IMG/VR virus record: IMGVR_UViG_3300027706_000027
Coordinates: 1 to 39,945 of that record
Origin: a virus
Length of the DNA stretch: 39,945 nt
Strand: one strand, 5' to 3'
A model generated the notes under the pieces. That model saw only the letters and a program-made list of their open reading frames with translations, had not been told where the DNA came from and did not search any database. Below are positions 1,112 to 30,812 of this stretch, in pieces. Position numbers and translations under genes: made by a program. Position 1 is the stretch's first letter. Every line of letters starts with the position of its first letter.

Positions 1112-2830
1112 CTATGCAGTGGGTTGGGATTCTGGCGCGGGTTGCGCTGGCACGGCCTCTAGCGCGGGCGTCGTTGGAGCAAGCGTTTCTGCTGGCGCTT
1201 CAGGAGTAGCGCTCTCCGGCTCTGCGGGCGCTGGCTGGGTCGCTCCGTCCACTGGCGCATGGACCGCCGGAATCTCTTGTGCCGTTGGAAGTGCCTCTGT
1301 GGATGGCTGAGAAGGCGCTGGCGCCGCTTCCTGGTCGGGAACGTCCTCTGCTACGCTCGCATCAGGAGAGGGCGCTGTAGCCTCTGTCGATGCGCTAGAC
1401 GCGGCTTTTTGTGCCAGGGCCTCAACCAGGGCCGGAATCGCGCTCGCTGGCGCGGCGGCCAACATTTCAATGAGGGAAAGTTGCTGCTCTTTGATTTGCA
1501 AGGCGCTTTCATGCGCCGTCTTCTCGTCTGAGAGTGCGGTGATTTGGTCACGCAAGGATGCCAGCACGGCTTGATGCTCTTGCTCGGCATGTTCCAGGCG
1601 CTGCCTGGCAACATCCCGCTCTTGCAAGGCGGCTTGTTTCTCCTCTTCCAATTGCGCCAGGTCTGGCCCGCCGGATGCCTGGCTCTGCCCAGCGCTGGCA
1701 AGCTCTGCCTCTAGCTGCTTCATCTTCGCGTCTAGCGCTTGCAACTGCGTATCCATATCTGCTAGCTGCATTTTGGCCGCTTGTAACTGCTCAGCGGTCG
1801 CGTTCTGGCCGGAGAGCGCTTCCTGCCGATCTTTCTGCGCTTGTGCCAATTGCGCTTGTGTACTGGCAAGCTGCTGCTGCAACGCGGCAACGTCTGCGCT
1901 CGCTTCTGCTTGCGTCGGGAAGAATTGCGCGACCTGCTCTCTGTGAATCAGGTAGGCCGGTCCCGTACTCCCCACCGGGTGGTCTAATTCATGGTTGACA
2001 TCCCAGGCTACGGCGCCGCGTTCAAACAGCGTGACCTTCACGCCGGGCTTGCCTGGCACGTCGGTTTCATCCGTCTGCGGTAAGCCAAGCAGCGTTAGAC
2101 CAGCATAGCTGCCGGGCGCTGGCACGGTCTGGTAGAATTGGAGCATGCCGCCGCGTATCAAGGCGTTGGGCGTGACGGTAGAACGCCAGCCATCCCCATC
2201 AGCCTGAAAGTAGCGGGAAACAACGGGGTCAGAAAGGGAAAGGGTCATCAGGGTGTGTCCTCCATTGACCTGCACCGGGGCAGGTACTGCGGTTTTCTTG
2301 CACACATAGACTTTGCCATAGCAGAGACGCGCTTGCCACCAACTATCCGGCTGATCTTGGAAGAAGCCGCCCCAGGGATTCATCACCCGGATCCAACCAG
2401 GTCCGACGCCGCACGCCGCGCCCTCATGCGTGACTGGATACGTGAGAACGCCGGGGCTTTCGACTTTGGCCGCATTATCCCACGGCCAGGGCATAGTGAT
2501 GAGAACCGGATGCCCGGCGGCAATCTCGTTGTGTACGATTTGCACGAGCTGCGCAGGATCGCCATACTCCGCTGTCATCTGGACGCCCAATGACGCGGCA
2601 TAGGCGATATAGCGCGCCGGGTCCGTTGGACCACGATAGGATACGCCGTATACCGCGTCTTTCAGTTCTGAGCCGGTATGATGCACGCCCGTTTGCTGTG
2701 TAATGCAGGCTGCAAGCGAGCAAGCAACGCAGTCGTCAGTATCATTGACTTCCTTTGCGCCGTTCGCCATGACCTCGTTGATTTGGTTCACCAGTGGAAA
2801 ACCAGCAAGCATATTCGTTATGGTTGCCAT
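1112..2830 (-). CDS. C39-type papain-like cysteine peptidase with coiled coil, candidate endolysin
   Basis: 572 residues. Residues 1-180 form a C39-like papain fold: catalytic Cys34 in DTDDCVACSLAACI, His135 in PVTHEGAACG and Asn151 in VMNPWGG. A beta-rich region (about 190-310) follows, then a long Gln/Glu/Ala coiled coil (about 310-465), and finally a Pro/Ala/Glu-rich low-complexity tail. The start codon overlaps the stop of the upstream gene (TGATG). No amidase, lysozyme or glycosidase is visible anywhere else in the late block, and the gene sits among membrane proteins at the operon end, so a peptidoglycan cross-link peptidase role is the best guess. A virion-associated or processing protease is the alternative. 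The two predicted activities have not been separated by any sequence feature. Confidence 0.78.
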   Translation of the reverse strand: MATITNMLAGFPLVNQINEVMANGAKEVNDTDDCVACSLAACITQQTGVHHTGSELKDAVYGVSYRGPTDPARYIAYAASLGVQMTAEYGDPAQLVQIVHNEIAAGHPVLITMPWPWDNAAKVESPGVLTYPVTHEGAACGVGPGWIRVMNPWGGFFQDQPDSWWQARLCYGKVYVCKKTAVPAPVQVNGGHTLMTLSLSDPVVSRYFQADGDGWRSTVTPNALIRGGMLQFYQTVPAPGSYAGLTLLGLPQTDETDVPGKPGVKVTLFERGAVAWDVNHELDHPVGSTGPAYLIHREQVAQFFPTQAEASADVAALQQQLASTQAQLAQAQKDRQEALSGQNATAEQLQAAKMQLADMDTQLQALDAKMKQLEAELASAGQSQASGGPDLAQLEEEKQAALQERDVARQRLEHAEQEHQAVLASLRDQITALSDEKTAHESALQIKEQQLSLIEMLAAAPASAIPALVEALAQKAASSASTEATAPSPDASVAEDVPDQEAAPAPSQPSTEALPTAQEIPAVHAPVDGATQPAPAEPESATPEAPAETLAPTTPALEAVPAQPAPESQPTA

Positions 2831-3183
2831 CAAACATACTTCCTTTGCGGTTGAAAATTGCCGTCTAAGCGGGCTTGCACTAACGATTCCGGCACGTTGT
2901 ACGCTTTCGCCAACTCTCGCACGAGCCAGTTGTTGCGACTCTCGACCAACTCTAGCCGCTCTTCCATGTATTGCAGACGCCGCCGCAACTGGTTGATTTC
3001 CTGATCTTTGCGACTCGCCTCCGTTTCGTAGTTTTGGATGATGCGCAGCGCCTTATCAAACATGTCATTCCCTGACTGCCTGTTGGCCGTTCGCCAGAAT
3101 TTGAGATACGCGAAGATACCCGCCAGCACTAAGGTGAGAATCGTTGCCAGGGATGCGAACGTTGACAGTGTTGCGGCGTCCAT
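2830..3183 (-). CDS. Membrane-anchored coiled-coil protein
   Basis: 117 residues from the ATG with a purine-rich site (AGGGGG) upstream; the frame is open farther upstream but that part is Arg-rich and unconvincing. One N-terminal membrane helix (residues 5-28, FASLATILTLVLAGIFAYL) is followed by a helical coiled coil (about 40-90) and a basic tail. The topology resembles Rz-like spanin i-subunits and XhlA/hemolysin-type phage lysis accessories. It lies between the four-helix protein and the C39 peptidase and shares the TGATG junction with the latter, supporting a role in lysis. Confidence 0.7.
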   Translation of the reverse strand: MDAATLSTFASLATILTLVLAGIFAYLKFWRTANRQSGNDMFDKALRIIQNYETEASRKDQEINQLRRRLQYMEERLELVESRNNWLVRELAKAYNVPESLVQARLDGNFQPQRKYV

Positions 3184-3654: not shown

Positions 3655-4014
3655 TCAACTCGCTAGCGTTACATCTGGCGTGACGGTGAGGGTCCCACTA
3701 TCTACCGTCGTCACATTGCCGTTGGAGTCCTTCATCTGCACATCAAATACGAGGTCGACTTGATGGGCAGGCAAGCCACTGGTCTCAGCCGGTTGAATGG
3801 AAAAGTGGGCAATGCCTGGTGTCTGGGAATCCCCCTGCTGGTCAATCGTAAAGTCTGCGGTGACTTTGTGGATAATGGCCGCTGCATCTGCGTCCGCATA
3901 ACTCCGCTTGGCCGTAAACCAGAGTGACGCGCCAGAGAGTCCCTGGCTCCCCAGGCCCGTAATCGTCACCTGTACGGTTTTATTGTCCCCGCGCGTCATT
4001 TGTAATGTACTCAC
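3655..4014 (-). CDS. Small baseplate/fibre beta-domain protein
   Basis: 119 residues. The beginning (LQMTRGDNKTVQVTITGL), then SLWFTAKRSY and a C-terminal DSGTLTVTPDVT, resembles the small Ig-like or BppU N-terminal-like domains common in siphovirus baseplates ('TRGDT...F.V...L.GA.VWFTAK'). No catalytic residues are seen. Its ATG overlaps the stop of the giant fibre gene (ATGA), so the two are likely made together and may assemble together. The family assignment is from pattern memory. Confidence 0.66.
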   Translation of the reverse strand: MSTLQMTRGDNKTVQVTITGLGSQGLSGASLWFTAKRSYADADAAAIIHKVTADFTIDQQGDSQTPGIAHFSIQPAETSGLPAHQVDLVFDVQMKDSNGNVTTVDSGTLTVTPDVTLAS

Positions 4015-7000
4015 ACAATGACCTCCGTTCCGGTGGGTACGTTAGGGAGAAAAATCGTTGTCGCTCCTGGCGTCGCCACAAAGGTGGTTCTCCCTGGCGC
4101 ACCATGCAAGGACACGCCAGAAAGGGAGGCTGTCGCTGCGACCGTTCGCACCGGAGAGGTCGCTAGAGCAGCGCTCGGCGGGATGCTGCGCACCTGCGTC
4201 AGTGTCAAGGCGGCAGTGACGGATGCGATCAGACGCGCGATGTCCGCCTCTGAGAGCGCCGTATCGGCTGGGATGGCCCGGATGGTTCCGCCAGAGAGCG
4301 CAGCAGTAATGGTTGAGAGCGTTCGGATGATGCTTGCCTGAGAGAGCGCGGCGCTGACTGCGAGTGGGCGAATGGGCGAGGTTTGGAGGGCTGAAGCGGA
4401 TGGCAGCGTGCGGGTTGGCGTCATCAGCAATGCGGCGCTGATACTTGCCAGAACACGCTGCAATCCAAGCGAGGCCAGTGCCGTGCTGACGCTGGAAATC
4501 GTCCGGGTGGGCGACGTGGTAAACGCGGCTGCAACGGGCGTCAGGGTGCGAACCGGAGACGTTTGGAGCGCTGCTGCAACAGGTGTCAGGGTGCGAATTG
4601 ACGTGACCAGCAAGGCGGCTGAATTCGGCGTCAGTGTTCGCAGGGGGGACGTTTGAAGTGCGACGCTCACAGGGACCGTGCGGGTTGCAGTGAAGGTGAG
4701 CGCCGCTGTCACACTGCTGATGGTCCGGGTAATGGGCGTCCCGACGGCCAGCGCTGCATTATTCTTCTGGCCGGTGCCAGCGCCGGATGCCACCACGTCG
4801 AATTGCAGGTGGAGGTAGGCAATTTGATGGGTCGTATCAACGTAGATGTTATAGTCAGTGCCTGAGTTAAGCGCCATCCCTCCCCAACTCACCTTGAGTT
4901 CTGAGCCGTCTGTTTGCGTCAAACCACTGAGGCCGGTTATCTTGAAACGTGGCTTATAGCGCACGTTGGGCTGAACGACGGCGCTCAAATCCAGGGTGGT
5001 GTTGATGGCATTATTGGTCGCTGAGAGAACATAGCAGCCTTCATCCAGGTTGAACGGGAAGGCGGGATGGTTGGGGTAGTTGAACGTGGTAAGCGTACCA
5101 GTGACCACCTGTGGCGCGCCGGGCTGCAAGTAGTCAGCCGCAATCGCCAGCATATCCGCCGTAGAGAGGTTGCAGCGCAGCGCTTCCATCAGATAGAAGT
5201 CCCAACTCGTGCCGTTGGCAATCGTGCCAATGGCCGCGCCCCACTTCAGCTTGATACGGCTGGTATTGGAGAGGCTGGCGAAACTGGCGCCTGAGAGGCC
5301 GTTATCGGCCCACTTGGTGAACTTCGTCACGACCAGACCCAGCCGCTGGTCAGTACGTCCGGCCATCCCAGCAAGCGGAATCAGGCCAAACAGGTCCGGC
5401 TCACCAGGGGTATTGCTGCTGCTGCCATCAGGCACAGGGCCGGTGATCGCTAGCGTGCTGACCGTGCCGTAGAAGGCGTGCGTCGCGTCGTTTTTCCAGG
5501 GACCCTGATTGCTGCCAGAGCCGCTGTTGCTCAGCATGCCAGCGGGGGAACAAATCTCTAGATTGTCGGTGCTGCCTGCCGTTACCGTGCTAATCCCGCT
5601 CCCACTGTTATTCGCCAGATTGATTTTCCAGAAGATAAAACCCGGATCACCGGGGTAGATACAGGCAGTGATGGTCCAGGTGATAGTATTGGCATCGGTC
5701 CCTGAGACGCTGATATACCGCCTCAGCCCAGTTTGCACCGGGGCCTGCTCGTTGACAGTAAAGTTGGTGATGTCCTCGGTGCCGATAAAACCGTGCGAGG
5801 CATTGCACAGGACGTGCAAGTGGCCGTCGGGGACACTGGTTGCCATCGTGATCTGCGAACCACTGTTGACGCTGTTCATGCTGCTGTTGACAATGGCGCC
5901 AGCAGTCTTCTCATACAAGCTGCTGAACGGCATGCCACCATAGGTGCTGTTCTCGCCCAGCGCCCAGCCATCTCCTGACGCATTGGCGCTGGTCAGTTGC
6001 TTCTCGGTATCAGACCCGCTGCTTGGTGAAGTCCAGGAGACGGTTTTGCTGCCATCCGCTTGCATGGTGGCTGGCCCGGTACCCACGCCAAACTGCGTCG
6101 CCCCGCTGGTCTTTGCGACCGTTGTTCCCAGGCTGGCGGTGATGATGGCAATGGTGCGCGTCGGGGAGGTCTGAAGGGCTGCATCCATGCCGCTGATGGT
6201 GCGAGAAAGCGTCATGAGCAACGCGCCGCTGATGCTTCCCAGCGTGCGCGTCAGCCCAGCGACTGAGAGGGCAAGAGTCACGCTGCTGATGGTGCGTGTC
6301 ACGCCGCTCGTTGACAAGGCGGCTGTGGCTGGTGCGATGGTGCGCGTCGGGGAGGTTTGCAACGCGGCAGAAACGCTGCTGACCGTTCGCAGGATGCCAG
6401 CAAGTGAAAGCGCCGCCGTGACGGTGTTCACCGTGCGGGTGATGCCTGCCTGTGAGAGCGCCGCTGTGCCAGGAACAAGCCGCGTTGTCACCTGGAGCGC
6501 AGCCGAGGCCGTGACGGTGCGCGTCACGCCGCTGGTAGAGAGCGCCACGTCGATGCTGGTCATCGTTCGGATCCCTTGCCCGGTGATGGCCGCATCGATA
6601 CCACTGATGGTGCGTGTGTTCCCACTCGTAGCAAGCGCTGAGTCTGCGGTGATGGTCCGCGTGGGGGACGTTTGAAGTGCCAATGTCACCGAGGTGATCG
6701 TGCGCGTCGTGGTCGTTTGGAGCGCTGAATCTATACTGCTGATGGTCCTGGTGAGCGTGGTCTGAAGCGCTGCCGTACTGGGCGTGATCGTCCGGGTGAC
6801 ACCGCTCGTTGATAGGGCGGTGTCTACGCTGGAAATCGTCCGGGTGGGAGAGGTCTGCAAGGCTGCTGTCGCGCTGCTGATGGTCCGCGTCGGAGACGTT
6901 TGTAACGCAGCGGTGACGGTGCCAATGGTCCGGCTTGCCGCTTGCAGGTCATCCAGGCTGTAGAACGTGTAACTCGCCTTGTGGGAGAGCGAGCTATCGG

Positions 7001-7571
7001 CAAAGCCATACACGCCAGAGCGGCCAGCCGGTATCGCCGTGCCGGTATCCGTCCAGCTAATAGTCCAGGTTCCCGGCTCCGATCCAGATGTATCCCAAAT
7101 GCGTGCAGAGAGGACTGGCTGATTAGAACCATTCAGGACAATGTTGAAGCGGATGCGGTAGACGTGGCCGGTGGTAATGGTGAAGTTGGCCGTCGCTTGC
7201 GTGACATTACTGCTGGACTTGCGCGACATGATGACGATATGTCCAGCTCCATCGTAGCGCGCCAGATACCAGTCCGTTCCTGCCCCACTGGTGCCATGCC
7301 AGCACGCCAGCGCGCCAAAGGTGTCAGCCGTGTTATCAATCGAGCATTCAACGACAATCTCTTGCGTCTGATGCGTATTGCCATCATCCAGATGGCAGTA
7401 GCGACTGGCGCTGTCACTAATCTGGCCTTTGTTAGAAACAATCTTGACGCCAGCGAGGCCCGTGCCATCGTTGGCCCAGGCGTAGTTGGTGACGCCCGCT
7501 CCATTGGTGGACGTGCCCCAGCCAGTCGACGTATTGGCGCGTGTGAAATTGTCTTCTGCAATGATTGCCAC
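4011..7571 (-). CDS. Large repeat-rich tail fibre (1186 aa)
   Basis: Domain order. Residues 1-210 are a LamG/concanavalin-like jelly roll (starts EDNFTRAN, ends YGFADSS...YTFYSLDDL). About 215-495 is a first array of some 18 tandem repeats of 13-16 residues with consensus [ST]xxAALxTSxxRTI. About 495-945 is a single non-repetitive, Gly/Ser/Thr-rich globular domain. About 945-1150 is a second array of some 14 repeats of the same motif. A short C-terminal cap ends TFVATPGATTIFLPNV. The repeats have an alternating hydrophobic pattern suggestive of a beta-structured rod. It is the last large structural gene before the lysis region, fitting a receptor-binding fibre. The repeat nucleotide copies have diverged, so they are coding repeats and not a DNA array. 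Confidence 0.85.
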   Translation of the reverse strand: MAIIAEDNFTRANTSTGWGTSTNGAGVTNYAWANDGTGLAGVKIVSNKGQISDSASRYCHLDDGNTHQTQEIVVECSIDNTADTFGALACWHGTSGAGTDWYLARYDGAGHIVIMSRKSSSNVTQATANFTITTGHVYRIRFNIVLNGSNQPVLSARIWDTSGSEPGTWTISWTDTGTAIPAGRSGVYGFADSSLSHKASYTFYSLDDLQAASRTIGTVTAALQTSPTRTISSATAALQTSPTRTISSVDTALSTSGVTRTITPSTAALQTTLTRTISSIDSALQTTTTRTITSVTLALQTSPTRTITADSALATSGNTRTISGIDAAITGQGIRTMTSIDVALSTSGVTRTVTASAALQVTTRLVPGTAALSQAGITRTVNTVTAALSLAGILRTVSSVSAALQTSPTRTIAPATAALSTSGVTRTISSVTLALSVAGLTRTLGSISGALLMTLSRTISGMDAALQTSPTRTIAIITASLGTTVAKTSGATQFGVGTGPATMQADGSKTVSWTSPSSGSDTEKQLTSANASGDGWALGENSTYGGMPFSSLYEKTAGAIVNSSMNSVNSGSQITMATSVPDGHLHVLCNASHGFIGTEDITNFTVNEQAPVQTGLRRYISVSGTDANTITWTITACIYPGDPGFIFWKINLANNSGSGISTVTAGSTDNLEICSPAGMLSNSGSGSNQGPWKNDATHAFYGTVSTLAITGPVPDGSSSNTPGEPDLFGLIPLAGMAGRTDQRLGLVVTKFTKWADNGLSGASFASLSNTSRIKLKWGAAIGTIANGTSWDFYLMEALRCNLSTADMLAIAADYLQPGAPQVVTGTLTTFNYPNHPAFPFNLDEGCYVLSATNNAINTTLDLSAVVQPNVRYKPRFKITGLSGLTQTDGSELKVSWGGMALNSGTDYNIYVDTTHQIAYLHLQFDVVASGAGTGQKNNAALAVGTPITRTISSVTAALTFTATRTVPVSVALQTSPLRTLTPNSAALLVTSIRTLTPVAAALQTSPVRTLTPVAAAFTTSPTRTISSVSTALASLGLQRVLASISAALLMTPTRTLPSASALQTSPIRPLAVSAALSQASIIRTLSTITAALSGGTIRAIPADTALSEADIARLIASVTAALTLTQVRSIPPSAALATSPVRTVAATASLSGVSLHGAPGRTTFVATPGATTIFLPNVPTGTEVIV
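4100..4745 (-). repeat. Second coding repeat array in the tail fibre
   Basis: About 14 tandem units of 39-48 bp, in frame, encoding variants of SVTAALxTSPxRTL. Units are strongly diverged at both DNA and protein level; the core Ala-Leu and Arg-Thr-hydrophobic pairs are kept. The boundaries are approximate. Confidence 0.85.
6095..6930 (-). repeat. First coding repeat array in the tail fibre
   Basis: About 18 in-frame tandem units of 39-48 bp. Some share near-identical stretches, for example several copies encode AALQTSPTRTI and others ALSTSGVTRTI, giving two alternating sub-types. The boundaries are approximate. Confidence 0.88.
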
Positions 7572-7580
7572 AGGACGCCT

Positions 7581-8018
7581 TTAGACCTGATCGAAATTGC
7601 TGCTCATGAGAACGCCGCCGTCGGCATGGAAGAAGGTATAGGAAGCGGTCTCTCCCTGCACCCAGCCAAGAATGGTAACGCTTGGACGGTGCGTTTGCTG
7701 GCCTGTATTGGGATCAAGTTCAATGAGCCGACGCCGCTGAAAGACCGCCCGTTGTCCGGCCATCGCATCTACAAAGAGCGCGTGATTGGACACGCCAGCA
7801 ACTTGGGGGATGAGTTCTACTGCTCGTACCTGATGCCAGTTGACCTGCTCCCAGGTGTGGACATAGCCGCCTGCTACCTCATCCATCAGCGTGCCATCGA
7901 GGAAATGCACCCGCCAGCGCCAGATGTCTGGCGGGACCGGCGGCGCCTCCGCCAGAGGCGGCTCTGTTTCCAGTGCTGCTGAAGCCGAAACCTCAGCAAC
8001 AATCGTTTCATCACTCAT
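7581..8018 (-). CDS. Hypothetical tail-region protein
   Basis: 145 residues. The N-terminal 30 residues are acidic and Ala/Pro-rich, followed by a compact aromatic-rich domain (PDIWRWRVHFLDGTLMDE, then YVHTWEQVNWHQVRAVEL and SYTFFHADGG). A purine-rich site (AAGAGAAG) precedes the ATG. It lies 9 bases upstream of the giant fibre gene in the same operon, so it may be a fibre assembly or attachment factor, but I do not recognise its family. Confidence 0.72.
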   Translation of the reverse strand: MSDETIVAEVSASAALETEPPLAEAPPVPPDIWRWRVHFLDGTLMDEVAGGYVHTWEQVNWHQVRAVELIPQVAGVSNHALFVDAMAGQRAVFQRRRLIELDPNTGQQTHRPSVTILGWVQGETASYTFFHADGGVLMSSNFDQV

Positions 8019-8703: not shown

Positions 8704-9306
8704 TTATTGCGCATCAACCCAGGCGCCAGAACGCCGGACACGCACGCGCGTGGCTTGCGTCCAGACACCGCTACGTCGTACATAGATCAATCCCGTTTGC
8801 ACCCAAGCGCCGCTACGCCGTACCCGCGCGCTCACTGGCTGGTAGTCTGCATACGCACCGAGCGCATGGAAGCCCGTGCTAGAGAAGCCGGAGAGGCTGC
8901 CTGGCGGGCTAGCATCGGTATTCCAGACAGAACTGCCGGTACTCTCCGTCGTTGTGACAAAACCGTTATGTTCTGGCACGCTAAAGCCAATATAGATGGT
9001 TGACCCGCCGGAGACATAGACCGGCGTTGCCAGCGCGCCCGTATGCCACGCCTGCCCACCGACGCTGTTGGTGCCCTGTGGAACGGAGACGGCCACGCTT
9101 CCTAGCAGATTCCCGCTGCCATCCCAGAGGCAGAGCCAGCAGGTGGCCGTGCCGTTGGCTTCGGTGGCAAAATAGGCATGCAAGTTCGTGATGAGACCGC
9201 CGCTGGCTGGCATGGTAAAGGCCGTAGCAACCTGATTCGGCGGCGTATTGACGCCCTGGAAAAAATAGATGCTGCCAGGAGTAGAGGAATTGCCAACTTG
9301 CGGCAT
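8704..9306 (-). CDS. Tail appendage protein with triple C-terminal RRSGAW repeat
   Basis: 200 residues. Residues 1-155 form a beta-sandwich-like domain (IYFFQGVNTPPNQ, TCWLCLWDGSGNLLG, STIYIGFSVPEHNG). This looks like a receptor- or carbohydrate-binding module, although nothing catalytic is seen. The C-terminus has three tandem copies of a 12-16 residue basic motif (VRRSGAWVQ, VRRSGVWTQ, VRRSGAWVD), the kind of short Trp/Arg repeat found at the ends of phage tail proteins. It lies between two other appendage genes in the operon. Confidence 0.75.
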   Translation of the reverse strand: MPQVGNSSTPGSIYFFQGVNTPPNQVATAFTMPASGGLITNLHAYFATEANGTATCWLCLWDGSGNLLGSVAVSVPQGTNSVGGQAWHTGALATPVYVSGGSTIYIGFSVPEHNGFVTTTESTGSSVWNTDASPPGSLSGFSSTGFHALGAYADYQPVSARVRRSGAWVQTGLIYVRRSGVWTQATRVRVRRSGAWVDAQ

Positions 9307-10323: not shown

Positions 10324-13300
10324 CTAACACACCTTCACTGCTGGGCCACACAGGGTGCTTGGGCCAATGATCGGGCAAACGTAGACCGTTTCCGTGACGC
10401 TTTCAGCGCGCGTCCGGCTTTCAGGCACGCTGTATTCAATCGCCACAATGCCGCTAGAGCCAACGCTCAGGCTAGCGACGTTTGACGGAATCTTGCTGAT
10501 GAGGTTGGCAAAGAGCTGCGTCCAGGAGCCAATGACCGGCCCCTCAACGGCGGTAATCTGATAGCGGAGTTCGGTTGCCAAATCATAGGTTCGCACGCTG
10601 GAAATCAGCATGAGGACATTGTTGAGATTATGGACCGGCAACTTGACCCGCAAGAGCGTGCCTGCGACCAGGCCCGCACGCCTGGTTTCAAACGTGAGCG
10701 TCCGGCCAATGACTCCGTAGCGTTGCAGGATGGCTGCCGCGCGCTGGAAAGCAGCGGATTGGTCCGTCAGGTCCGAGCCATCATCCACCATCTCGACGAT
10801 GCCTGTGCCGCCGCCTTCAACGCTTTGCCGGTCAGCAATCGCTGCCGGACTCTCGCTAATCGTGGTGGCCTGATATTGGCCGTAGTATTCAATATGCCAG
10901 AGATCAGCAGAGGTCAGGGGCGTGCCCCCATTATCCTGCGCCAGCGTGTTATCCCCCGGCGCCCAATACCAGTCCTTGCCAGTATCTGTCCCCTTCAGCC
11001 CTACCGTTTGTGCCACGCCGTTGACTTCCAGAACTACCGGCGCCTGGACCAGCGGAAAGCCAACGGTGAACGTCTGACGGCTGCCATCCCCCAGTTGTTC
11101 TTCCACTTGCAAGGCCGTTGTAGCCAGCCCTCCCGTAATAATCTCGCGGTTGCGATACAATGGATTGGCATTTTGCACGGTTGGCTCTGGACTGCCGAGC
11201 ATGTCCGGCGCGAGGCCCGCGCTGTTTGTCCAAATCGCCCAGGCCGCTGCGGTCAAGGCGCGGGCCTGAAAGACCAGGCGGTGATCTGGGCGGATATTCC
11301 AGGTAAAGGTTGCGGCAGTCGCCAGTGCATTGATACAGTCCGTGATATAGGCATAGTTGAGGCTGGCTTGCACGATGGTTGGGCCGTCCTGAATCGTGCG
11401 CGTGCAGGCTTTGATGGTGAGGTCTTGCAACGTTGGCGTGGCATCCCGGTTGGCATCAGCCGTCAGGCTCTGGCGTACCAGCACAGAGACGCCCGCCAGG
11501 CTTTGTCCCTGTGGTTCCACATGCAGCCACTCCAATGTGGCAAAGTTAGTTCCACTGCCAGGTCGCGCCAGCAAGAGGCCGCATTCCCCCGCGCCGCTGA
11601 TGGTGCTGTCGCTGGCCGTCAAGATGGGAGTGCTATCCAGCGAAGCCGTTAAGGCCGTGCCAATGATCTCCAATTCCATCCGGTGCAAATCGCCCGGCTG
11701 GAAATCTACGTTTGCCGTGCCCAGGGAGGTTGAGACGCCGCTTACTACCTTGTACAGCGTCATGACGGCAGCGTTGGGCGTGCTGCTGTCTTGTATGCGC
11801 AGCCGATAGTAGGTGGTGCCATTGACGCGCGCCAGCAGTGAGAGATCATCGGCCTGGCTACTATCTGCGGCCAGTATGACATCGGTTGGTGAGAGACCGC
11901 TGTAGAGCAGGAGGCCATCTCCACTGCTGCCAGCAGCGTTGCTGCCTTGCAGCACGTTATCCATCGTCTCCCAGGTCCACGTTGCCCCGCCGCTCTGGCT
12001 AAAGAGCGCGCTGGTATCGGAGTCAAAAATATCATCGTAGGGAGACGGCTCGTACTGTAAGCCAGGAATCTCGTCGCCGCTGGCCGTAATCGTCTGCCAG
12101 GTAGCTCCATGATCTATGCTCGTTTCAATCAGCAACGTCGTGCCAGCAGGGATCGTCGCATCCCAGGTAACAGTGGCCGTACGCGCAATATCGGCGGCGC
12201 TGAGGTCCAGCGCCGGGCTGATGCGCTGCTGCGTCCCAGAGACGTAGGCGCTTGCTATGGAGGCCGTCAGGAGGGAAAAGGTAGGCGTGACCGTCGCATC
12301 GGTTGTACTGAGCGTGACCGTAAACTTCAAGCGGACATTGGTGAGATTTTCCAGCGCGGTGATGCCAGGAATAGCCGCACCATTCGTACAGGAGGTAAGC
12401 GCGCCATAGGTTGCGCCGCCGTCAGTTGAGACCTGGACCTGAACGGTCACGCTGGTACTGGGAGGCGTACTGGCTGTCCAGCTTACCGCCGTTGCGCCTG
12501 CCAGACTCGCCCCTGAAGGATTAATGACAGGAGAAACCCAGGTGCCGCTTTCCGCTGGCACAATGCCGACATTGCCAAAGACCGCCGCCGTCGCGCTCGT
12601 ATCGCCATGATAGAGCGCGAACTGGCCCGCCGCGTTGAAAGTCGCATCCGTCTGGCTGATTTTGGAAACGCCATCCACGTAGACGGTGTGGCTGCTGCCA
12701 GAGACGACGACCTTGATGCGATGCGTACTCCCAGAGGTCAAGCCGGCAACGGCCACCTGTTGAATCAGCGTAAAGCCGCCCGTACTGCTGTTCGTGCCTT
12801 TGCCCAGATTGATATTCCCGACACCAACATAGACGAGGTAGGCATAGGTATCGTTGGCGCTGTCGGCAGCCCAATGGGTTGTGCGATAAATCAGGCCCGC
12901 TGTTCCGCTCCCACTGGGCACCACCACATCAAATTCTGCGGTAAAATCAGCAATAGCTGCTTGATTGTTAAAACGACTGTAGACCTGCTTGTTGGCGGCG
13001 CACGTCACCTGAAGTTGGCTATTGCTGATGGTTTGCTGTCCGGTCGTGCCGCTGCTGCCAAAAAGACTCTGCTGGAAAAGATACGCCTCGCTGCTCCAAT
13101 CCGCGCGATAGCCCGCCAAATCCAACTGAGAGATGAGCGGGGCAATCACCAGATTGTCAAAGGTGGCCGCCGCGCCTGAAGCGCGCAAGCCAAACTGCCC
13201 AGCCGCCATGTAGGTGCTATCGGTTTGTGTGGTCGCTTGCTGAACACCGTCCAGCCAGAAGCTGTGCTTGCTCCCCTGCACGACAATGCGCAAGCGGTGC

Positions 13301-14793
13301 GTAGACCCGCCTGCGAGCGAAGAACCAAGCGTATAGGTGAGCAGGGTTGTGAAGGTGCCGGTGCCACTGCTGCTATTGGAGCCATAGCCAAAGATCAGCT
13401 GCGTGGTGGTCAACTTGACGGCATAGCCGTAGGTCTCATTGTTGTTCTGCCAGCCGGTTGTTCTGTAGACCACGCCAGCATTGCCACTGGACGGGATAAC
13501 TATATCTACTGAGAGGTAAAAATCAGCCATCTTCGCTACGGCGTCCATGCGGGCGCGCGCATCTTGCCCCGTCGCGGGCGTGAGCGTGCAAGTGCCTGAA
13601 CTGACGACCTGGGTAGCGCCGCTGGCCCCAAAGAGCGTCTGGTTTGCCGCGCTGTTGTCGTTCCAGTTGCGGATATACGCGCTCGTCAGGTTGGGATCGC
13701 CTGGCGCTTGCGTAGTAGTCAGCGTACCTCCTGCGAAGTCTGCGAGCGTCTGATACGTGCTTGTACTATCGGCAGCAACTTTGCCAACCGTCAACGCGCC
13801 AGCGGCCACCGACCAGTTGGGATGCAGGGTGGCATCTGTCGTGCAGACAAGCTGCGCTTCATCCATGAGGAAGGCGCCGCTGTTCGTAGTGGTATTTGAG
13901 ACAGAAACGATGCAGCACACGGTTGCGCTGGCTGTCCCGGCGGGTGCGGTGGCTGTGACACTGTACTGCGTAAATGGACCGACAATGCCAGCGGAGATGC
14001 TGGTAGAGGCGCTAGAAATGGAGCCGCCGCCGCTGTTCATCCAAATGATTTCGATTTGCAGCGTTGCGTTCGTAAAGCCCGTCGTAATCTTGACCCACAG
14101 GCTAAAGGTATAGCTTTGCGCCGCCTCCAATGAGGGGATCGCTTGCTGTACCTGGAATTGGCTGTTTGGCGTGTTGGTAAATGAAACGGATTGCGCGCTG
14201 CCAACTTTGCCGCTCCCGCTGCTGCTGTAGGTAATGCCCGTCGTGACGCCACCTGATTCAAAATGCGACCAGTTTGGCGCAATGCCCGCGCCTGAGTAGG
14301 TGCCTTCAAAGCTGGGATTCGTGACGAGATTGAACGTGCCCGCTTGCCAGTCGGCAACCGTTGTTTCTTCGCGGCTCACATGATAGCCGATGACGCCCTC
14401 CGCTGCCAGATAGGACTTGACGAGATCAGAGACAATATCGCCCGCCAGCGTGTTGGCGTAGGCTTTGGCCGCGACGCGCTTGTCCGCCCAATAGATGCCA
14501 TCTTTGCAGGTACAACCCGTGCGCAGATACGGCGTGTTGGTTGGCCCGATCACTCGGCTTTCGGTTGGCACGTCAATATAGCCCCAAAAGAGCGTGCTGC
14601 CATCGGCTGCCAGGATTTCCACCTGCTGGCCTTGCTGGTAATGCGTGGTCCCCGCATCATCTTTGATCGTAAAAGACGCGGTACTGCGCTGCTCTATTTG
14701 GTCAGTAATGCCAAACGCATTCGTGTTATTCATGCTGCCTGCGGCCAGGACGGAGACTGGCGTTCCATCAATTTTGACGGTCGGTACGCTCAT
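10324..14793 (-). CDS. Giant tail hub / tip protein with inserted carbohydrate-binding-like modules
   Basis: 1489 residues; ATG overlaps the tape-measure stop (ATGA). Residues 1-150 resemble a gp27-/Tal-like hub N-terminus (FTIKDD, QQGQQVEI, LFWGYIDVPTESR). About 155-325 is a CBM4/9-like module (LVTNPSFEG, YTFSLWVKI). Two closely related LamG-like modules follow (about 365-570 and 575-760; shared VVYRTT/LIYRTT...STHR...VVSGSSHTVYVDGV). Next come Fn3-like strands (ATVSWTAST-type) and a third LamG-like module (about 945-1115). The last approximately 370 residues return to hub-like sequence (INALATAATFTWNIRPDHRLVF, GIVEMVDDGSDLT, RVKLPVHNLNNVLM). This suggests that binding modules are inserted within a hub. 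Position after the tape measure supports a tail-tip role in adsorption. No hydrolase motif is visible. Confidence 0.86.
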   Translation of the reverse strand: MSVPTVKIDGTPVSVLAAGSMNNTNAFGITDQIEQRSTASFTIKDDAGTTHYQQGQQVEILAADGSTLFWGYIDVPTESRVIGPTNTPYLRTGCTCKDGIYWADKRVAAKAYANTLAGDIVSDLVKSYLAAEGVIGYHVSREETTVADWQAGTFNLVTNPSFEGTYSGAGIAPNWSHFESGGVTTGITYSSSGSGKVGSAQSVSFTNTPNSQFQVQQAIPSLEAAQSYTFSLWVKITTGFTNATLQIEIIWMNSGGGSISSASTSISAGIVGPFTQYSVTATAPAGTASATVCCIVSVSNTTTNSGAFLMDEAQLVCTTDATLHPNWSVAAGALTVGKVAADSTSTYQTLADFAGGTLTTTQAPGDPNLTSAYIRNWNDNSAANQTLFGASGATQVVSSGTCTLTPATGQDARARMDAVAKMADFYLSVDIVIPSSGNAGVVYRTTGWQNNNETYGYAVKLTTTQLIFGYGSNSSSGTGTFTTLLTYTLGSSLAGGSTHRLRIVVQGSKHSFWLDGVQQATTQTDSTYMAAGQFGLRASGAAATFDNLVIAPLISQLDLAGYRADWSSEAYLFQQSLFGSSGTTGQQTISNSQLQVTCAANKQVYSRFNNQAAIADFTAEFDVVVPSGSGTAGLIYRTTHWAADSANDTYAYLVYVGVGNINLGKGTNSSTGGFTLIQQVAVAGLTSGSTHRIKVVVSGSSHTVYVDGVSKISQTDATFNAAGQFALYHGDTSATAAVFGNVGIVPAESGTWVSPVINPSGASLAGATAVSWTASTPPSTSVTVQVQVSTDGGATYGALTSCTNGAAIPGITALENLTNVRLKFTVTLSTTDATVTPTFSLLTASIASAYVSGTQQRISPALDLSAADIARTATVTWDATIPAGTTLLIETSIDHGATWQTITASGDEIPGLQYEPSPYDDIFDSDTSALFSQSGGATWTWETMDNVLQGSNAAGSSGDGLLLYSGLSPTDVILAADSSQADDLSLLARVNGTTYYRLRIQDSSTPNAAVMTLYKVVSGVSTSLGTANVDFQPGDLHRMELEIIGTALTASLDSTPILTASDSTISGAGECGLLLARPGSGTNFATLEWLHVEPQGQSLAGVSVLVRQSLTADANRDATPTLQDLTIKACTRTIQDGPTIVQASLNYAYITDCINALATAATFTWNIRPDHRLVFQARALTAAAWAIWTNSAGLAPDMLGSPEPTVQNANPLYRNREIITGGLATTALQVEEQLGDGSRQTFTVGFPLVQAPVVLEVNGVAQTVGLKGTDTGKDWYWAPGDNTLAQDNGGTPLTSADLWHIEYYGQYQATTISESPAAIADRQSVEGGGTGIVEMVDDGSDLTDQSAAFQRAAAILQRYGVIGRTLTFETRRAGLVAGTLLRVKLPVHNLNNVLMLISSVRTYDLATELRYQITAVEGPVIGSWTQLFANLISKIPSNVASLSVGSSGIVAIEYSVPESRTRAESVTETVYVCPIIGPSTLCGPAVKVC

Positions 14794-17180
14794 GCGCGTA
14801 CCCCTGCATTGCGCAACTGCGCTACTGCCTCGGTCATGACCTGGTGCGCTACCTCTCTGCCATTGAGATACACGTGTACATGCAGCTCTTGAGTCAACGT
14901 CCCGCCAGGAGAACTCTCCTGCGGCTCGCTGGCACTCACCCCAGCCTGCTGTGTCGCGGGCATCACGCTGGCTTGCATGCCGCTCCATCCAGCAGACGCG
15001 CCGCCGCCCATGAGCGAGGTAAACAGCAGCAGTTGACTGACCACATCATGCGGGAAAACCGTCGCGCCGCCGGGTAAGGCGACGACCTCTGAGCCACGCT
15101 CGCCAACCAACGCCAGTCCGCTCTGGGGCATGATCCCGCCGGAGGCAAAACTGACATTGGGAATTTTGGGCACGTAGGGGATATTGACGCCTGGTACCAT
15201 GTCCATACCGTGAATGACATCATTGATGCCCTGAATAAAGTCATTGATCAACCCAATGACAAAGTTCAGCGCATCGGCAATCCCGCCCTTGACATCATCC
15301 CAAATACCCAGAGGTACGCCCTTGATGCTGTCCCAAAGATTCTGCCAGATGCCTCCAATATCATTCCAAAGACCGCCAAACCAGTTCTTGATGTCATTCC
15401 AAATATTGATGCCAAGTTGCTTAATATCATCCCAGAGTTGCCCCCATTTGCCGGAGAGTAAGTCAGCCGCAATATCAAACAGGCCCGTAATGAAATCCCA
15501 AGCCGTTTTAATCACGCCAGAGATGTCATCCCAGACGAATTTGACGACCGCACTCATCGTCGGCCAGAGCGTGTTCCAAACCGCTCCGATGACCGTCGCG
15601 GCCTGCTGTATGGCGCCTGCTACGGCCTTGATGAAGGGTTGCAGCCGGTTGGCTAAGCCAGAGGCAAAGTCTCCGATGGCATGGGCCGCCTGGACAACTT
15701 TGGGGATCAGGAATTGCAGTGCCTGGTTGGCGAGATGGAGGACGACTCCGGCAACCTGGACAATAATGGGGGCCACCACCTGAAAAATGGGCAGCAGGGT
15801 CGAAGCCAGGGCCGCCACGACTTGCGAGACCGCATCGCGCACGGCAAAAAAGGCGGGCACCCCAGTGCTGATGATGGTATCGACCAAGTCTTCAATGGGA
15901 GGCACCAGTTGCATGATGGCAGGCAGCATCTGGCTCTGGAACCAGCCCGCAAGCTGCTGAACAATCGGCCCCCATTGCGCCAGCGTGGCCTGGAAGGATT
16001 TCCAGCCATCCGTGACGACCAGTTGCAACAGGAGACCCGCATCACTAGCCAGATGCTTGAAGAGATCGCTCAGCGGCGCCAATGCGTTGAGCAAGCCGCC
16101 GATTTGGATACCGCTGATGGCCGTGCCAAGATGCTGAAAAGGGGCAATGAGTTGTTGTATGACGCTCCAGAGCGCGCTCAGACCCGGCTGCAAGTCCGTG
16201 CTGACAACCTGCCAGATGGCTTGCAAGGCAGGCACGATTTGGGTGGTCCAGAGATTACCCAATGCTTGAAAGACTTGTCCAACGGGGGTCAGCAATTGCC
16301 CCAATCGCTGCCAGGCCGGGTTCAGATTCTCCAGCAGCCAGTTTGCCATCGGGGTAATCCAGTTGGCAACGGCGGTCAGCGGCGGGAGCAATATCCCGCC
16401 CAGCGCCTTCCCAATGTCGCCCATTGCCAGCTTGAACCGATCAAAGGGGTCGGTATCCCCGGCGGCCTTGGCAGCCCCGCCGAATTCACGCTCCAACTCG
16501 TTCAAAATCAAGGTTTGAGCGCCTGCGGTATTGCCCGCGTCCACCATCGCTTTGATTTGCGCTTTTTGCTGGTCGGTGAACGTCACGCCCACACGGGAGA
16601 GGGCTGAAATCCCTTGCACCGGGTCATTCAAGGCTTTGCCGAGTTGGATGGCCGTATCCTTCAAATCCAACCCGGACAGCGAGCCGTGATTCATGGCAAC
16701 GGCCATATCCAGCATGGCCTGATTCGCCTGGGGAAAGACCGTACTGCCAATGTTGGTAAACGTCAGCAGCATATTGGTGCCGGAGAGAATTACATCATCA
16801 TCCACCCCGTCCAGGTTCTTGAGGCCCTGCACCATGTTGTTAATCTGCGTGGCTGACAGCCCTACCGCGTCATGCGTTGAAGCCAGCACCGAGTTCAGCA
16901 GCGCCTGATTCTGCGCCGCCTGGATGGCCCCCTGTATCCAGCCCCCGACAACGCTGGTCACGCCCTGGATGACCGCTTGCACGCCTAAGAAGGTTTGATA
17001 TGCGTGCGCGCCAAATTCCAGCAGCGAAGACAGCCCACCCTTGATACTAGAGACAAAGCCCCCCATATGAGTCTCTGCCTCGGCATGGACATGGGCAACG
17101 GCATCGGCAACCTGCTGCGCGCCGCTCGTAAAGCTGGCTACATCCGCTGTGAAGCGGACGACCATCTCTCCGATGTTCAT
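14790..17180 (-). CDS. Tail tape measure protein
   Basis: 796 residues. It begins NIGEMVVRFTADVASF, a common tape-measure opening, and continues with long helical stretches, hydrophobic segments in the middle (AFFAVRDAVSQVVAALASTL, IIVQVAGVVLHLA), Trp-rich repeats (GLWNDIGGIWQNLWDSIKG) and the diagnostic C-terminal LVGERGSEVVALPGGATVFP. It is the longest helical protein of the cluster, located directly after the frameshifted chaperone as in lambda. Using about 1.5 angstrom per residue, a tail near 120 nm would be expected. No lytic transglycosylase or peptidase domain is obvious. Confidence 0.93.
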   Translation of the reverse strand: MNIGEMVVRFTADVASFTSGAQQVADAVAHVHAEAETHMGGFVSSIKGGLSSLLEFGAHAYQTFLGVQAVIQGVTSVVGGWIQGAIQAAQNQALLNSVLASTHDAVGLSATQINNMVQGLKNLDGVDDDVILSGTNMLLTFTNIGSTVFPQANQAMLDMAVAMNHGSLSGLDLKDTAIQLGKALNDPVQGISALSRVGVTFTDQQKAQIKAMVDAGNTAGAQTLILNELEREFGGAAKAAGDTDPFDRFKLAMGDIGKALGGILLPPLTAVANWITPMANWLLENLNPAWQRLGQLLTPVGQVFQALGNLWTTQIVPALQAIWQVVSTDLQPGLSALWSVIQQLIAPFQHLGTAISGIQIGGLLNALAPLSDLFKHLASDAGLLLQLVVTDGWKSFQATLAQWGPIVQQLAGWFQSQMLPAIMQLVPPIEDLVDTIISTGVPAFFAVRDAVSQVVAALASTLLPIFQVVAPIIVQVAGVVLHLANQALQFLIPKVVQAAHAIGDFASGLANRLQPFIKAVAGAIQQAATVIGAVWNTLWPTMSAVVKFVWDDISGVIKTAWDFITGLFDIAADLLSGKWGQLWDDIKQLGINIWNDIKNWFGGLWNDIGGIWQNLWDSIKGVPLGIWDDVKGGIADALNFVIGLINDFIQGINDVIHGMDMVPGVNIPYVPKIPNVSFASGGIMPQSGLALVGERGSEVVALPGGATVFPHDVVSQLLLFTSLMGGGASAGWSGMQASVMPATQQAGVSASEPQESSPGGTLTQELHVHVYLNGREVAHQVMTEAVAQLRNAGVRA

Positions 17181-24981: not shown

Positions 24982-27279
24982 CTACACGTCCCCCTCTTCA
25001 TCGTCTGTATGGTAGCCTTCCGTACACCGGCAATTACACAGTTCGCTGGCTGGCGCGCCAAGCGAGGAATCTCCTGGAAACATCAGGCTGGCGCCGCCAA
25101 CGGTATAGGGCGTATCCAGCGGTTGCCGCTGCCCATCTGCTGCTGCGTGTGTCTCTCTGGTATGGCTATCCGGTGTCGCAATCCATTCCTTTTCCAATCT
25201 CAAGCCCGTCGAGCGCGCGGCGGCCTGAGAACCGAGATTGCTGGCGCTAATTACTTCTGTGACCGCAATCAAACGGCTTCTGTTTTTTGCATTGGGGCCA
25301 GAGAAGAGGCTTTGAATGCGTTTGGCGAGTTGCAGGATGCTTTCGCCCGCATCCACGCCCGCCTTCAGTTCATCGCGTACCTGCTGGCGCGTGGTGTCAA
25401 GGATGTTGGTGATTTTCTGGCCTGCATATAAACCTAGCCAATTGAGGATGGCTTGCTTCCAGATGTCGATGGGAAAGGCGGCTTTCTGTTTCGCTGGCAC
25501 GGCGTCTTGAATCGCGTCATAGGTCTGCTGCCCAAAGGTATTCCCGACAGCAGCGTACACCGCAGCTAAGAGTTTCGTCCAGTCAGCTTCAAAGCTATCA
25601 ATCGCTTTCAGCGCGCGCTGCATGGCATCATCCGGCGTCTGGCCGTCGTTCAGTGCCGCCAGCAGCATCTTTTGCTCGCTTGCAAACTGCTTTTCGATTT
25701 GACTGGCAACTTCCTCGTACCAGTTTGCGCGGCTCTGCTCCGTCTGCTCCCAATGTGCCGCCTTCTCTTCTGCCGTCTTCAGGTTGATGGATTTGCGCTG
25801 GGCACGCGGCGCAATGCGGATGCTTGCGCCTTGTTCCTGCCAGCGTTTCAGCAAGAGCCGCATGTGCGCCGATGCGGCTTCAAATTCCCCGTCACTACTG
25901 TCTCCGCTGGTACTCGTATCCGCGCCGCCGCTGTCGTCCACAATGGTCGCTTCTGGCAATGGCGGCAAGGAGCCAGGCGGCAAACCTGGCAAGGCAGGGT
26001 TGGTATCGTTTGTAGCGATTTGCATGGCCGTTGGCAATATCCAGACATCTCCATCCGGCAAGGGGTCATAGCCAATGAGCGCACGCGCTTCATTCTTGGA
26101 GAGCAGCCCCTTTTCCCAGGCGGTCTCTGCTCGTATCCATACCTTATCGCGGTCCTCTGCCAGCGCTTCTATGCTGTCCTTGTCGTAGCCCAGATAGAGA
26201 TTATCCCCAAACATCGGCACCAGCCAGCTATTGATATGCCCTTCGAGATGGTCCATCTTGGGCAGGACCGTCTCTTCATAGAAGCTGCTCCGGGCTTCAC
26301 TGTAGTTTGCGTAGGTACGCGCCTGATTGTTCCCCAACATCTCAGGAGGCACGCCAACCGCCATGCCAATTTCCAGAATGCTGGCGCCTTTGCCTTCCAG
26401 CCACTGCACATCGGCAGGCTTCAGGCCAAAGGGCTGCCAATCGGCCTCTGTATCATCCAGGACAAGCGGGATACCGGCGTTCTGTGGGCCTTGATGCTTT
26501 TCGCGCATCAACTGCTCAATTTTGGCGCGCTGCGTGGGCGTCAAGCCCTGTTTCATGACCAGCGCGCCAGAGGGCACGGCAGAATTGAGCATCAGGGAGA
26601 GATTCCATTCATTGCCCGCGTTCATCTGGTCTATCGCACGCCCTGCTGTTGCCAAGGGGGAGAGGCCGTAGTAGTCGTTCTCTGGATTAAAGAACTTCAG
26701 GTGCATGACCGTGTTCGCAGCAAAGGACTGCTTCTGGCCGCCGTCAGTATAGACAAAGCCGCCAATGAAGTTGACCGGATCGGGCACGATTTGCACTTTG
26801 TCAGGCCGGAGTGTCCAGAGTTGCTGGGGAATGTTCTTGTTGGGTCCGGTTTCCGGCGAGCCAACGGTGACGTAGGAATTGCCAGTGATGTACCAGAAGG
26901 CTACGACATACTCAATAAAGCTAGGGAGTGCCTGCTGTGGATTCGGACGCCGCCAAAGGTCAAGCAAGGGATGCGACGTGAGCGCAGTACGTTTGGAGCG
27001 GCCATTCTGATAGAGTATCCAGGGAATGCCAGCACAGGCTTGGGCAATCAACATCACCGCTCGGTAGCCATAAGCATTGGTCGAGAAGCCATCCTTTGCG
27101 AGCGCCCGCATGTTGCCAGGCGTATACATCGGACGGCCCCCGCCGCCATTCAACCGTGCCAGGATTTCAGAGACAGGATTGACCTTCAGATAGACGGTAG
27201 GCAAGCGTTCCGCATCAGAGGGGACCGGCGCCAAGACCGAGCGCAAGCGTTCCCAGCGGGTTTTGAGAGCCAGCGCCAT
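24982..27279 (-). CDS. Portal protein fused to MuF-like head morphogenesis domain
   Basis: 765 residues. Start chosen at the ATG overlapping the terminase stop (TAATG); the ORF is open upstream inside the terminase gene. Residues about 30-430 are a typical portal: IPWILYQNGRSKR, HPLLDLWRRPNPQQ, WYITGNSYVTVGSP, LKFFNPENDYYGLSPLATA, LDDTEADWQPFGLKPADVQWLEGK, IGMAVGVPPEMLG. About 560-765 is MuF-like: TEVISASNLGSQAAAR, WIATPDSHTRETHAAADGQ, FPGDSSLGAPASELCNCRC, the conserved Cys/Arg ending. The fusion links the portal to an internal head protein. Confidence 0.95.
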   Translation of the reverse strand: MALALKTRWERLRSVLAPVPSDAERLPTVYLKVNPVSEILARLNGGGGRPMYTPGNMRALAKDGFSTNAYGYRAVMLIAQACAGIPWILYQNGRSKRTALTSHPLLDLWRRPNPQQALPSFIEYVVAFWYITGNSYVTVGSPETGPNKNIPQQLWTLRPDKVQIVPDPVNFIGGFVYTDGGQKQSFAANTVMHLKFFNPENDYYGLSPLATAGRAIDQMNAGNEWNLSLMLNSAVPSGALVMKQGLTPTQRAKIEQLMREKHQGPQNAGIPLVLDDTEADWQPFGLKPADVQWLEGKGASILEIGMAVGVPPEMLGNNQARTYANYSEARSSFYEETVLPKMDHLEGHINSWLVPMFGDNLYLGYDKDSIEALAEDRDKVWIRAETAWEKGLLSKNEARALIGYDPLPDGDVWILPTAMQIATNDTNPALPGLPPGSLPPLPEATIVDDSGGADTSTSGDSSDGEFEAASAHMRLLLKRWQEQGASIRIAPRAQRKSINLKTAEEKAAHWEQTEQSRANWYEEVASQIEKQFASEQKMLLAALNDGQTPDDAMQRALKAIDSFEADWTKLLAAVYAAVGNTFGQQTYDAIQDAVPAKQKAAFPIDIWKQAILNWLGLYAGQKITNILDTTRQQVRDELKAGVDAGESILQLAKRIQSLFSGPNAKNRSRLIAVTEVISASNLGSQAAARSTGLRLEKEWIATPDSHTRETHAAADGQRQPLDTPYTVGGASLMFPGDSSLGAPASELCNCRCTEGYHTDDEEGDV

Positions 27280-29589: not shown

Positions 29590-29720
29590 AGTTTTTAGCG
29601 CATAATACGCGCAGTGCTGCGCACGGTTGGCGTGAAAGTGACAACTCCCCACTGCTAAAGCAGGGGGCTTCTCGGTTCATCCGGCTCAGCATCCTGAACC
29701 GTCCCCGACGGCGGTGCCCC
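29590..29720 (-). ncRNA. Possible omega RNA (tnpB right-end guide scaffold)
   Basis: In this family the guide RNA is made from the 3' end of tnpB through the right-end hairpin, with the guide in the flanking DNA. Here that would be the minus strand across the hairpin at 29642-29672 with guide bases immediately below about 29630. The boundaries are inferred from the family; only the hairpin is seen directly. Confidence 0.45.
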
Positions 29721-30812
29721 CGCCGTTAAGATATTCTTGGCGGCGTTCACGTCTCGATCTTCTACGTACCCACAGAAAGGACAAAGATGCGTACGGACAG
29801 AAAGACTCTTCTGCACGATCTCTCCGCATTGGTGGCACTGTTGCGACGTGAAGCGGGCAGGAACTTTCACGACTTGATGACCAGCCCTTGCAGCCATGTC
29901 TTCAAGTATCTCGATGAAGGTTCCCCAACTGGCATCGGCAATACTCTTCGCCAGATGGTGATTTTGGAGCATGCCGTTGATGTTCAGGTTCTCAACACAA
30001 ATATGCTTATATCCTTCAGCGTAAGGCTTCGCAGTCTTAAACAGGAAGTCTCTTCGCTGGCGCTTGATCTTCAGATGCGTCTTGGCGACATTGCGCGCTG
30101 CCTTGCGCCGTCTCTTGCTGCCCTTCTTACGTCGGCAGAGGGTGCGCTGTTTGCGTCTGAGGGTGCGCAGGCTCTTGCGATAATGGCGTGGGTTGGCAAC
30201 CGTGTTCCCCTCAGAATCTGCCAGAAAGACTTTCAAGCCCACATCCAGGCCAATATCAGGATGCGCACACGCGCCAGCGCTCTCCTGATGCGTTTGTTCG
30301 GTCTCTATCGGCTCACACACGATCAAAGCGTACCAGTTCCCATCGGCACGCAAGACGAGATGGCACGTCTGAGGCGTTCCCTCTATCGGGCGGTGCATCT
30401 TGATTTTCAAGGACAATCCCACTTTCGCAGGGACGCCAAGATGCTTCCCATCGGCCTGTATGCGAAAGTCTTTGATGTGTTGGCGCAGTTGTATCGAGTG
30501 CCAGCGGTTGGGCGTCTTGAAACGTGGGAAGCCACAGGGGATGCCTTGCTCCTTGAGCGCCAAATAGCGTCGCAAGGCTTTGTCAAGCCGGTCAGCAAGC
30601 ATTTGTACCGTTGTGGCTGGTATGGTATCGCCCCCACGCCCCTTAAACTGCGCCGTCAGGTCATACTTAAACAGGAACTTCCCTGTTTGGGCATACTGCT
30701 GCTTCGTGGCTTCCAACATCTCGTTGTACAAGCCCCGCGAGTCTTTCAAGCAGGCCATTAACTGCTGGCGTTGGCGCTTATTCGGATACAAGCGATACTC
30801 AAATGTTCTCAT
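29655..30812 (-). CDS. tnpB: TnpB RNA-guided nuclease (IS605 OrfB)
   Basis: 385 residues. RuvC residues are intact: Asp190 in DIGLDVGL, Glu274 in ICVENLNIN and Asp in the YVEDRDVNAAKN motif (about 352-354). A four-Cys zinc ribbon is present (CHQCGE...CPFCGY, 326-348), with the N-terminal OrfB_IS605 helix-turn-helix fold (YRLYPNKRQRQQLMACL) and a basic bridge (KQRTLCRRKKGSKRRRK). It probably cuts DNA next to a target-adjacent motif with an RNA guide and preserves the element. The ATG sits 6 nt after its -10, so the mRNA is predicted to be leaderless. The C-terminal 20 residues overlap the right-end hairpin. Readthrough would enter the late operon. Confidence 0.93.
   Translation of the reverse strand: MRTFEYRLYPNKRQRQQLMACLKDSRGLYNEMLEATKQQYAQTGKFLFKYDLTAQFKGRGGDTIPATTVQMLADRLDKALRRYLALKEQGIPCGFPRFKTPNRWHSIQLRQHIKDFRIQADGKHLGVPAKVGLSLKIKMHRPIEGTPQTCHLVLRADGNWYALIVCEPIETEQTHQESAGACAHPDIGLDVGLKVFLADSEGNTVANPRHYRKSLRTLRRKQRTLCRRKKGSKRRRKAARNVAKTHLKIKRQRRDFLFKTAKPYAEGYKHICVENLNINGMLQNHHLAKSIADASWGTFIEILEDMAARAGHQVVKVPARFTSQQCHQCGEIVQKSLSVRTHLCPFCGYVEDRDVNAAKNILTAGAPPSGTVQDAEPDEPRSPLL

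Follow-up and report, generated by a model that had tools for sequence, protein, structure and literature searches.

What kind of protein carries two arrays of short degenerate repeats on either side of a domain without repeats, and what might such arrays do for the virus that encodes them? The question is raised by an open reading frame of an uncultured virus, IMG/VR record IMGVR_UViG_3300027706_000027, positions 1 to 39,945 of which were analyzed here as one stretch (the window). An initial annotation, made from the letters of the window, had read this frame as a fibre, possibly a beta-helical rod with a receptor-binding head in its middle. The same repeat was found in about 20 further uncultured phage contigs, collected by degenerate-DNA scans of IMG/VR and in a sample drawn with a neighbouring protein, P174. 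The repeat protein is encoded among tail-tip genes, and in eight phages a head, an array and a tail-tip body follow one another in that order within a single protein. The repeats probably serve as a modular stalk of variable length, connecting the tail tip with heads that bind or act as enzymes.

Two arrays of a degenerate repeat

Window units were delimited by cutting after each R-x-[IVLM], which yielded 31 full units, predominantly of 15 residues (20 units) with fewer of 16 (seven), 14 (three) and 13 (one). Self-matching at a lag of 15 residues reached 0.33 in array 1 and 0.29 in array 2, as compared to a maximum of 0.21 among 2000 shuffles, and the N-terminal and central domains of the same protein displayed no period in this test. 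The claim of more than 30 degenerate units of 13–16 residues, in two arrays around a central domain, is thus confirmed at 17 plus 14 units. Both sub-types that had been noticed also recur, AALQTSPTRTI in four copies (with LALQTSPTRTI once) and ALSTSGVTRT[IV] in three. Variation in unit length falls mainly in two spots, one from [IV] to A-A-L (usually three or four residues), the other from A-A-L to the R that follows (usually five or six), consistent with a unit made of two short conserved segments and two loops.

Relatives in uncultured phages

Scans of IMG/VR employed degenerate DNA patterns for two successive repeat units. A pattern with 15-residue spacing recovered locus L003, one with 14-residue spacing recovered L011, L012, L013, L014, L015 and L018, and later scans added L022, L023, L024 and L025. 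The unit shared by the relatives is R-T-[IV]-x-x-[ST]-A-A-L-L-x-T-x-T, usually 14 residues long; this length accounts for 286 of the 402 units collected, and units of 15 residues are the commonest in the window and in L003. A profile derived from the other phages, with the window left out, scored 107 bits on array 1 and 90 bits on array 2, whereas 1000 shuffles scored no higher than −5.3 bits and reversed arrays no higher than −15.4. Judged by this profile, the window arrays belong to the same repeat family as those of the roughly 20 uncultured phages.

Several candidates were discarded as other repeats or chance matches (L004, L009, L010, L016, L017, L019, L020 and L021), as were cellular-genome matches in Methanoculleus, Hankyongella and an alphaproteobacterium. 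L004, a viral contig picked up by the same pattern, encodes a different degenerate 15-residue repeat at 327–830 on the minus strand (ALSPAFTSTVAATN / LSLSPVITQTVAVTN), and a tandem GAHAPALRPVATRTF repeat, unrelated to that of the phages, occupies Methanoculleus contig ends (L006:3–377 and the end of L008). Since cellular genomes were scanned without the 14-residue pattern, prophage copies may have been missed. No host was identified, the relatives of the TnpB and portal proteins indicating no single group.

Phage stalk repeats are known as a kind; the repeat reported here is in no family database searched, in line with the initial view that it has no name. Pfam, PHROGs and NCBIfam returned weak sub-cut-off matches to the arrays and no recurring family, PDB sequences contained no match, and a literature search of 5.39 million papers with six repeat peptides found no description. 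Searches with tblastn of annotated phages and plasmids, using the whole protein or an array, were likewise without a match, a result that the BLAST low-complexity filter weakens for the arrays; P174, which is not repetitive, also lacked a match in the annotated phage collection.

A tail-tip cassette and its fusions

In the window, the repeat gene has the tape-measure and tail-tip genes to one side and the lysis end to the other; it belongs to a cassette whose best marker is P174. Relatives of P174 (generally of about 173 residues) stand near an array in 10 repeat loci at 49–56% identity, and relatives of P145, of 110–150 residues, in nine. Most relatives that bear P174 and P145 also share the large tail-tip protein of the window, which is called hub-like by position and inference. 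Among the 22 loci of a further sample drawn with P174, eight were already known from the repeat scans and 14 were new. An array was detected at E<1e-4 in 17 of the 22, a fraction valid for that cassette only as P174 had been chosen from array loci. Ten of the 14 new loci have a clear array (one, L037, is possibly the same virus as L025); L041, the contig of L013, has three units and L046 approximately four degenerate ones.

Three gene orders were observed. In the first, the hub-like gene is followed by the array gene, P174, P145, a small gene and the lysin; in the second, that of the window, P174 and P145 come between the hub-like gene and the array gene, which then precedes the small gene and the lysin. 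In the third, P174 and P145 are followed by a fusion of head, array and hub (L013, L026, L027, L029, L031, L032, L035 and L042), and it is this order within one chain that places the array as the joint between head and tail tip.

Exchange of heads

The arrays of the relatives follow unrelated N-terminal heads. A LamG_3 head is found in L012, together with DUF2341, and in L015, and the heads of L023 and L025 are homologous or similar to these. A jelly-roll head is common to L011, L013, L014, L022, L024 and L038; its core was modelled at a predicted local distance difference test score (pLDDT) of 70–87, with the cocaine-esterase jelly-roll and CBM22 as nearest folds (E ~3e-4 to 1e-3, low template-modelling score). 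The N-terminus of L046 reads as a putative glycosidase-like domain. In the window, the N-terminal domain is homologous to the N-terminus of the L040 repeat protein (28% identity, E 3e-8), and L040 and L031 also have domains of this type within their tail-tip proteins; direct scans for its relatives found none, L040 having been reached via P174, and a weak CBM_4_9 match fell below the cut-off. These domain families suggest that the heads bind carbohydrate. A head in the middle of the protein, as initially proposed, would be particular to the window, since in the relatives the head precedes the array, and the window protein too has an N-terminal head of this kind.

Unit number, age and constraint

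Arrays of the relatives range from three to about 66 units. L012 and L023, which are 81% identical, carry 55 and 41 units, approximately 14 apart, and the main gaps between them (14, 13, 110 and 57 residues) are near multiples of 14, bearing out the suggestion that unit number could vary between strains. In L015 (4092–5671, minus strand) the array is broken by a frame change: a 344-residue open reading frame ends in RPITSQ, and the repeats continue in another frame and then run into a domain common to the tail-tip protein, reflecting either an indel or an assembly error.

Tandem Repeats Finder detected no DNA repeat across the array DNA of the window. Among five copies of LQTSPTRTI, third codon positions were identical in 2–6 of 11 (mean 4.1), and the mean expected for a pair drawn independently from that codon pool is likewise 4.1. 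Silent sites thus match independent draws while the peptide is held, which marks the repeat as old and under protein-level selection. Recent DNA slippage was ruled out on the same two grounds, the absence of a detectable DNA repeat and saturated silent sites between identical peptides. Between L012 and L023, the ratio of nonsynonymous to synonymous differences per site (pN/pS) was 0.36–0.40 for the array as against 0.21 for the head, so that the array is constrained, though less tightly than the head.

Structure models

Array 1, modelled with AlphaFold2 from 17 array rows, was predicted as strands throughout, at a pLDDT mostly of 50–65 and a predicted template-modelling score (pTM) of 0.40; only one of five models was this good. 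Foldseek returned no match to the array model at E≤0.001; weak matches to left-handed beta-helices were seen at E 0.4 or worse in the PDB, with a best E of 0.003 among viral models. Poor monomer models would be accounted for by an obligate oligomer. The window arrays do not follow the octapeptide VxGxxxxx of the T4 gp5 type: their period is 15 and Gly is rare.

Neighbouring genes

The virus record of 39,945 bases encodes an HK97-type capsid protein, a protease, a portal-MuF-like fusion, a terminase, a tape measure, an integrase and TnpB. Coordinates of the repeat protein, its parts and the surrounding cassette are collected in Table 1.

Table 1. Features of the repeat protein and its neighbours in the window.
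Feature	Position	Strand	Remarks
Lysin-like protein	1112..2833	-	homologous to cassette-end proteins of L003, L011, L012, L023
phrog_1084 protein, 119 aa	3655..4014	-	4-base overlap with repeat gene
Repeat protein, 1186 aa	4011..7571	-	GTG start; head / array 1 / central domain / array 2 / short C-terminal tail
C-terminal tail, aa 1156-1186	4014..4106	-	
Array 2, aa 936-1155, 14 units at aa 936-1144 plus decayed unit to ~aa 1155	4107..4766	-	
Central domain, aa 486-935 (450 aa), without repeats	4767..6116	-	without relative in searches made
Array 1, aa 211-485, 17 full units at aa 217-474 plus edge fragments	6117..6941	-	
N-terminal domain, aa 1-210, probable beta-sandwich head	6942..7571	-	homology to L040, L031
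P145, conserved cassette protein	7581..8018	-	relatives in repeat loci
P174, conserved cassette protein, 172 aa	8156..8674	-	best cassette marker
Tail-tip (hub-like) protein, 1554 aa	10324..14988	-	adjoins tape measure; 3-keto-disaccharide hydrolase/LamG-like domain
Tail tape measure protein	14790..17180	-	PHROGs

L003 has the same phrog_1084 neighbour downstream (43% identity), and the small gene neighbouring the repeat gene may resemble the N-terminus of BppU. The lysin-like protein (1112–2833, minus strand) has a coiled-coil stretch, a long Pro/Ala-rich C-terminus and a weak LGFP match; its relative in L011 is a GH25 enzyme, and the cassettes of L015 and L025 also encode pectate-lyase-like proteins. 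The product of 8704–9306 (minus strand) bears three copies of a VRRSGAWVQA-like motif at its C-terminus, and similar tails of the YVRSGEIT type end the array proteins of L011, L012, L023, L024, L025 and L028. Among annotated phages, a single distant match to the tail-tip protein (10324–14988, minus strand) was seen, in Methanosarcinales virus vir515 (37% over 28%); phages of bacteria and of archaea may have tail-tip modules in common. The portal protein with a Mu F-like domain (24982–27375, minus strand, 797 residues) is nearest, among annotated phages, to that of Geobacillus phage GBK2 (42% identity). A TnpB gene (OrfB_IS605 / Cas12f1-like TNB; 29655–30812, minus strand) lies between the terminase and the early region, and its best plasmid relatives, at less than 40% identity, are from Deinococcus, Thermus and Paenibacillus.

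Discussion

We propose that the repeat protein acts as an adhesin at the tail tip of a long-tailed phage. Its repeats of 13–16 residues would form extended, beta-rich stalks by which exchangeable heads, either carbohydrate-binding or hydrolytic, are tethered to the tail tip. In each unit, the A-A-L and T-R-T-[IV] segments may form two short strands joined by two loops, and R, T, [IV], A and L would be needed for the stalk fold. Gain and loss of units would set the length of the stalk. The exchange of heads, insertion place and unit number fits a modular spacer whose length matters, and reach may be a property under selection; with the second, unique domain between the window arrays, a single chain may display two heads, each at its own distance. 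A more specific version, which we hold tentatively and consider possible but doubtful, is a new fibrous beta-fold, probably oligomeric and with a regular Arg ladder, used by a group of uncultured phages as an exchangeable, length-tunable boom by which the reach of lectin or glycosidase heads is set in units, from three to about 66. Of the initial reading as a fibre, the tail association stands, in the form of a tail-tip block common to about 20 phages, whereas the beta-helical rod and the central head stay conjectural.

Several observations weigh against a stalk. Monomer models are weak, at the pTM given above for array 1 and a pLDDT of about 29 for an L014 array modelled from four rows. The 450-residue central domain is unique and unexplained, with no relative in any search. 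No array was found in the cassettes of L030, L043 and L045, two of which, L030 and L045, break off within P174 or shortly beyond it. The repeat protein is presumed to be part of the virion.

The low-confidence L014 model could instead describe a flexible, largely unstructured linker rich in T, S and A, a tether but no rod, and it agrees with an array composition of 64–81% T, S, A, L, V and I and with looser constraint in the array than in the head. We regard such a linker as unlikely, since R, [IV], A and L are invariant in nearly every unit, loop lengths are confined to a few values, peptides are kept despite silent-site saturation, and a deeper alignment lifts the array model to all strands. 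Simple composition might also suggest chance low-complexity sequence or a recent functionless DNA expansion, an explanation to which we give almost no credence; it is refuted by the silent-site test and the cross-phage profile, and the lag-15 signal, the null Tandem Repeats Finder result and conservation across about 20 phages also stand against it.

The invariant Arg allows another alternative, that the array itself binds, one Arg per unit forming a positive strip on anionic cell-surface polymers with unit number as avidity. Arg or Lys occupies position 1 in 99–100% of 14-residue units (in part by construction of the cutting rule), 20 of 21 arrays carry a net positive charge, reaching +11.6 per 100 residues, and reovirus sigma1 binds sialic acid via its fibre repeats (PMC3150272). 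However, L014 arrays are neutral and those of L011 nearly so, heads are almost always present, and the strictness of the R-T-[IV] context hints at a structural role for the Arg; binding by the array is thus distinctly improbable in our estimate. A canonical triple beta-spiral shaft, as in adenovirus fibre or reovirus sigma1, would suit the 15-residue mode of the window and L003, the two segments per unit and the viral fibre-like setting. That fold follows a 15-residue rule in which positions c, e, g, k and m are hydrophobic and j is P/G (PMC3150272). No register of the 15-mers shows this pattern: in each, one or more core positions are hydrophobic in no more than 16% of units, and units are of 14 residues in most relatives. 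We therefore judge this shaft to be very improbable.

A modular stalk at the tail tip is reminiscent of several known systems. With the adenovirus fibre shaft and reovirus sigma1 it shares repeats of about 15 residues, variable loops and a shaft bearing a binding head, but it differs in lacking their pattern of hydrophobic and P/G positions, in its invariant Arg, in the mostly 14-residue units of the relatives and in having no sequence match in the PDB. Like the triple-stranded beta-helix of T4 gp5 and other phage beta-fibres, it combines a tail setting with a short beta repeat and a length adjustable by repeat number; the T4 gp5 unit, however, is the eight-residue VxGxxxxx (PMC4576200), whereas the phage repeat is 13–16 residues long, contains R-T-[IV] and A-A-L and is nearly devoid of Gly. 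The BACON arrays of crAssphage are likewise tandem, tail-associated, variable in copy number and found in uncultured phages (PMC6949934), but their units are whole carbohydrate-binding domains, in contrast to 13–16-residue units outside known families. Siphophage adhesion devices (evolved Dit/Tal, BppU) also lie between tape measure and lysis genes and carry lectin-like modules in tail-tip proteins, from which the present system differs by its stalk repeat and by a P174/P145 cassette without a match in the annotated phage collection searched. The finding also marks a tail-tip cassette absent from that collection. An undescribed repeat joins the small set of viral stalk motifs, and its family is defined well enough, by a profile, a cassette marker, about 20 members and one pair at 81% identity that differs in unit number, to test tuning of adhesin reach by repeat number.

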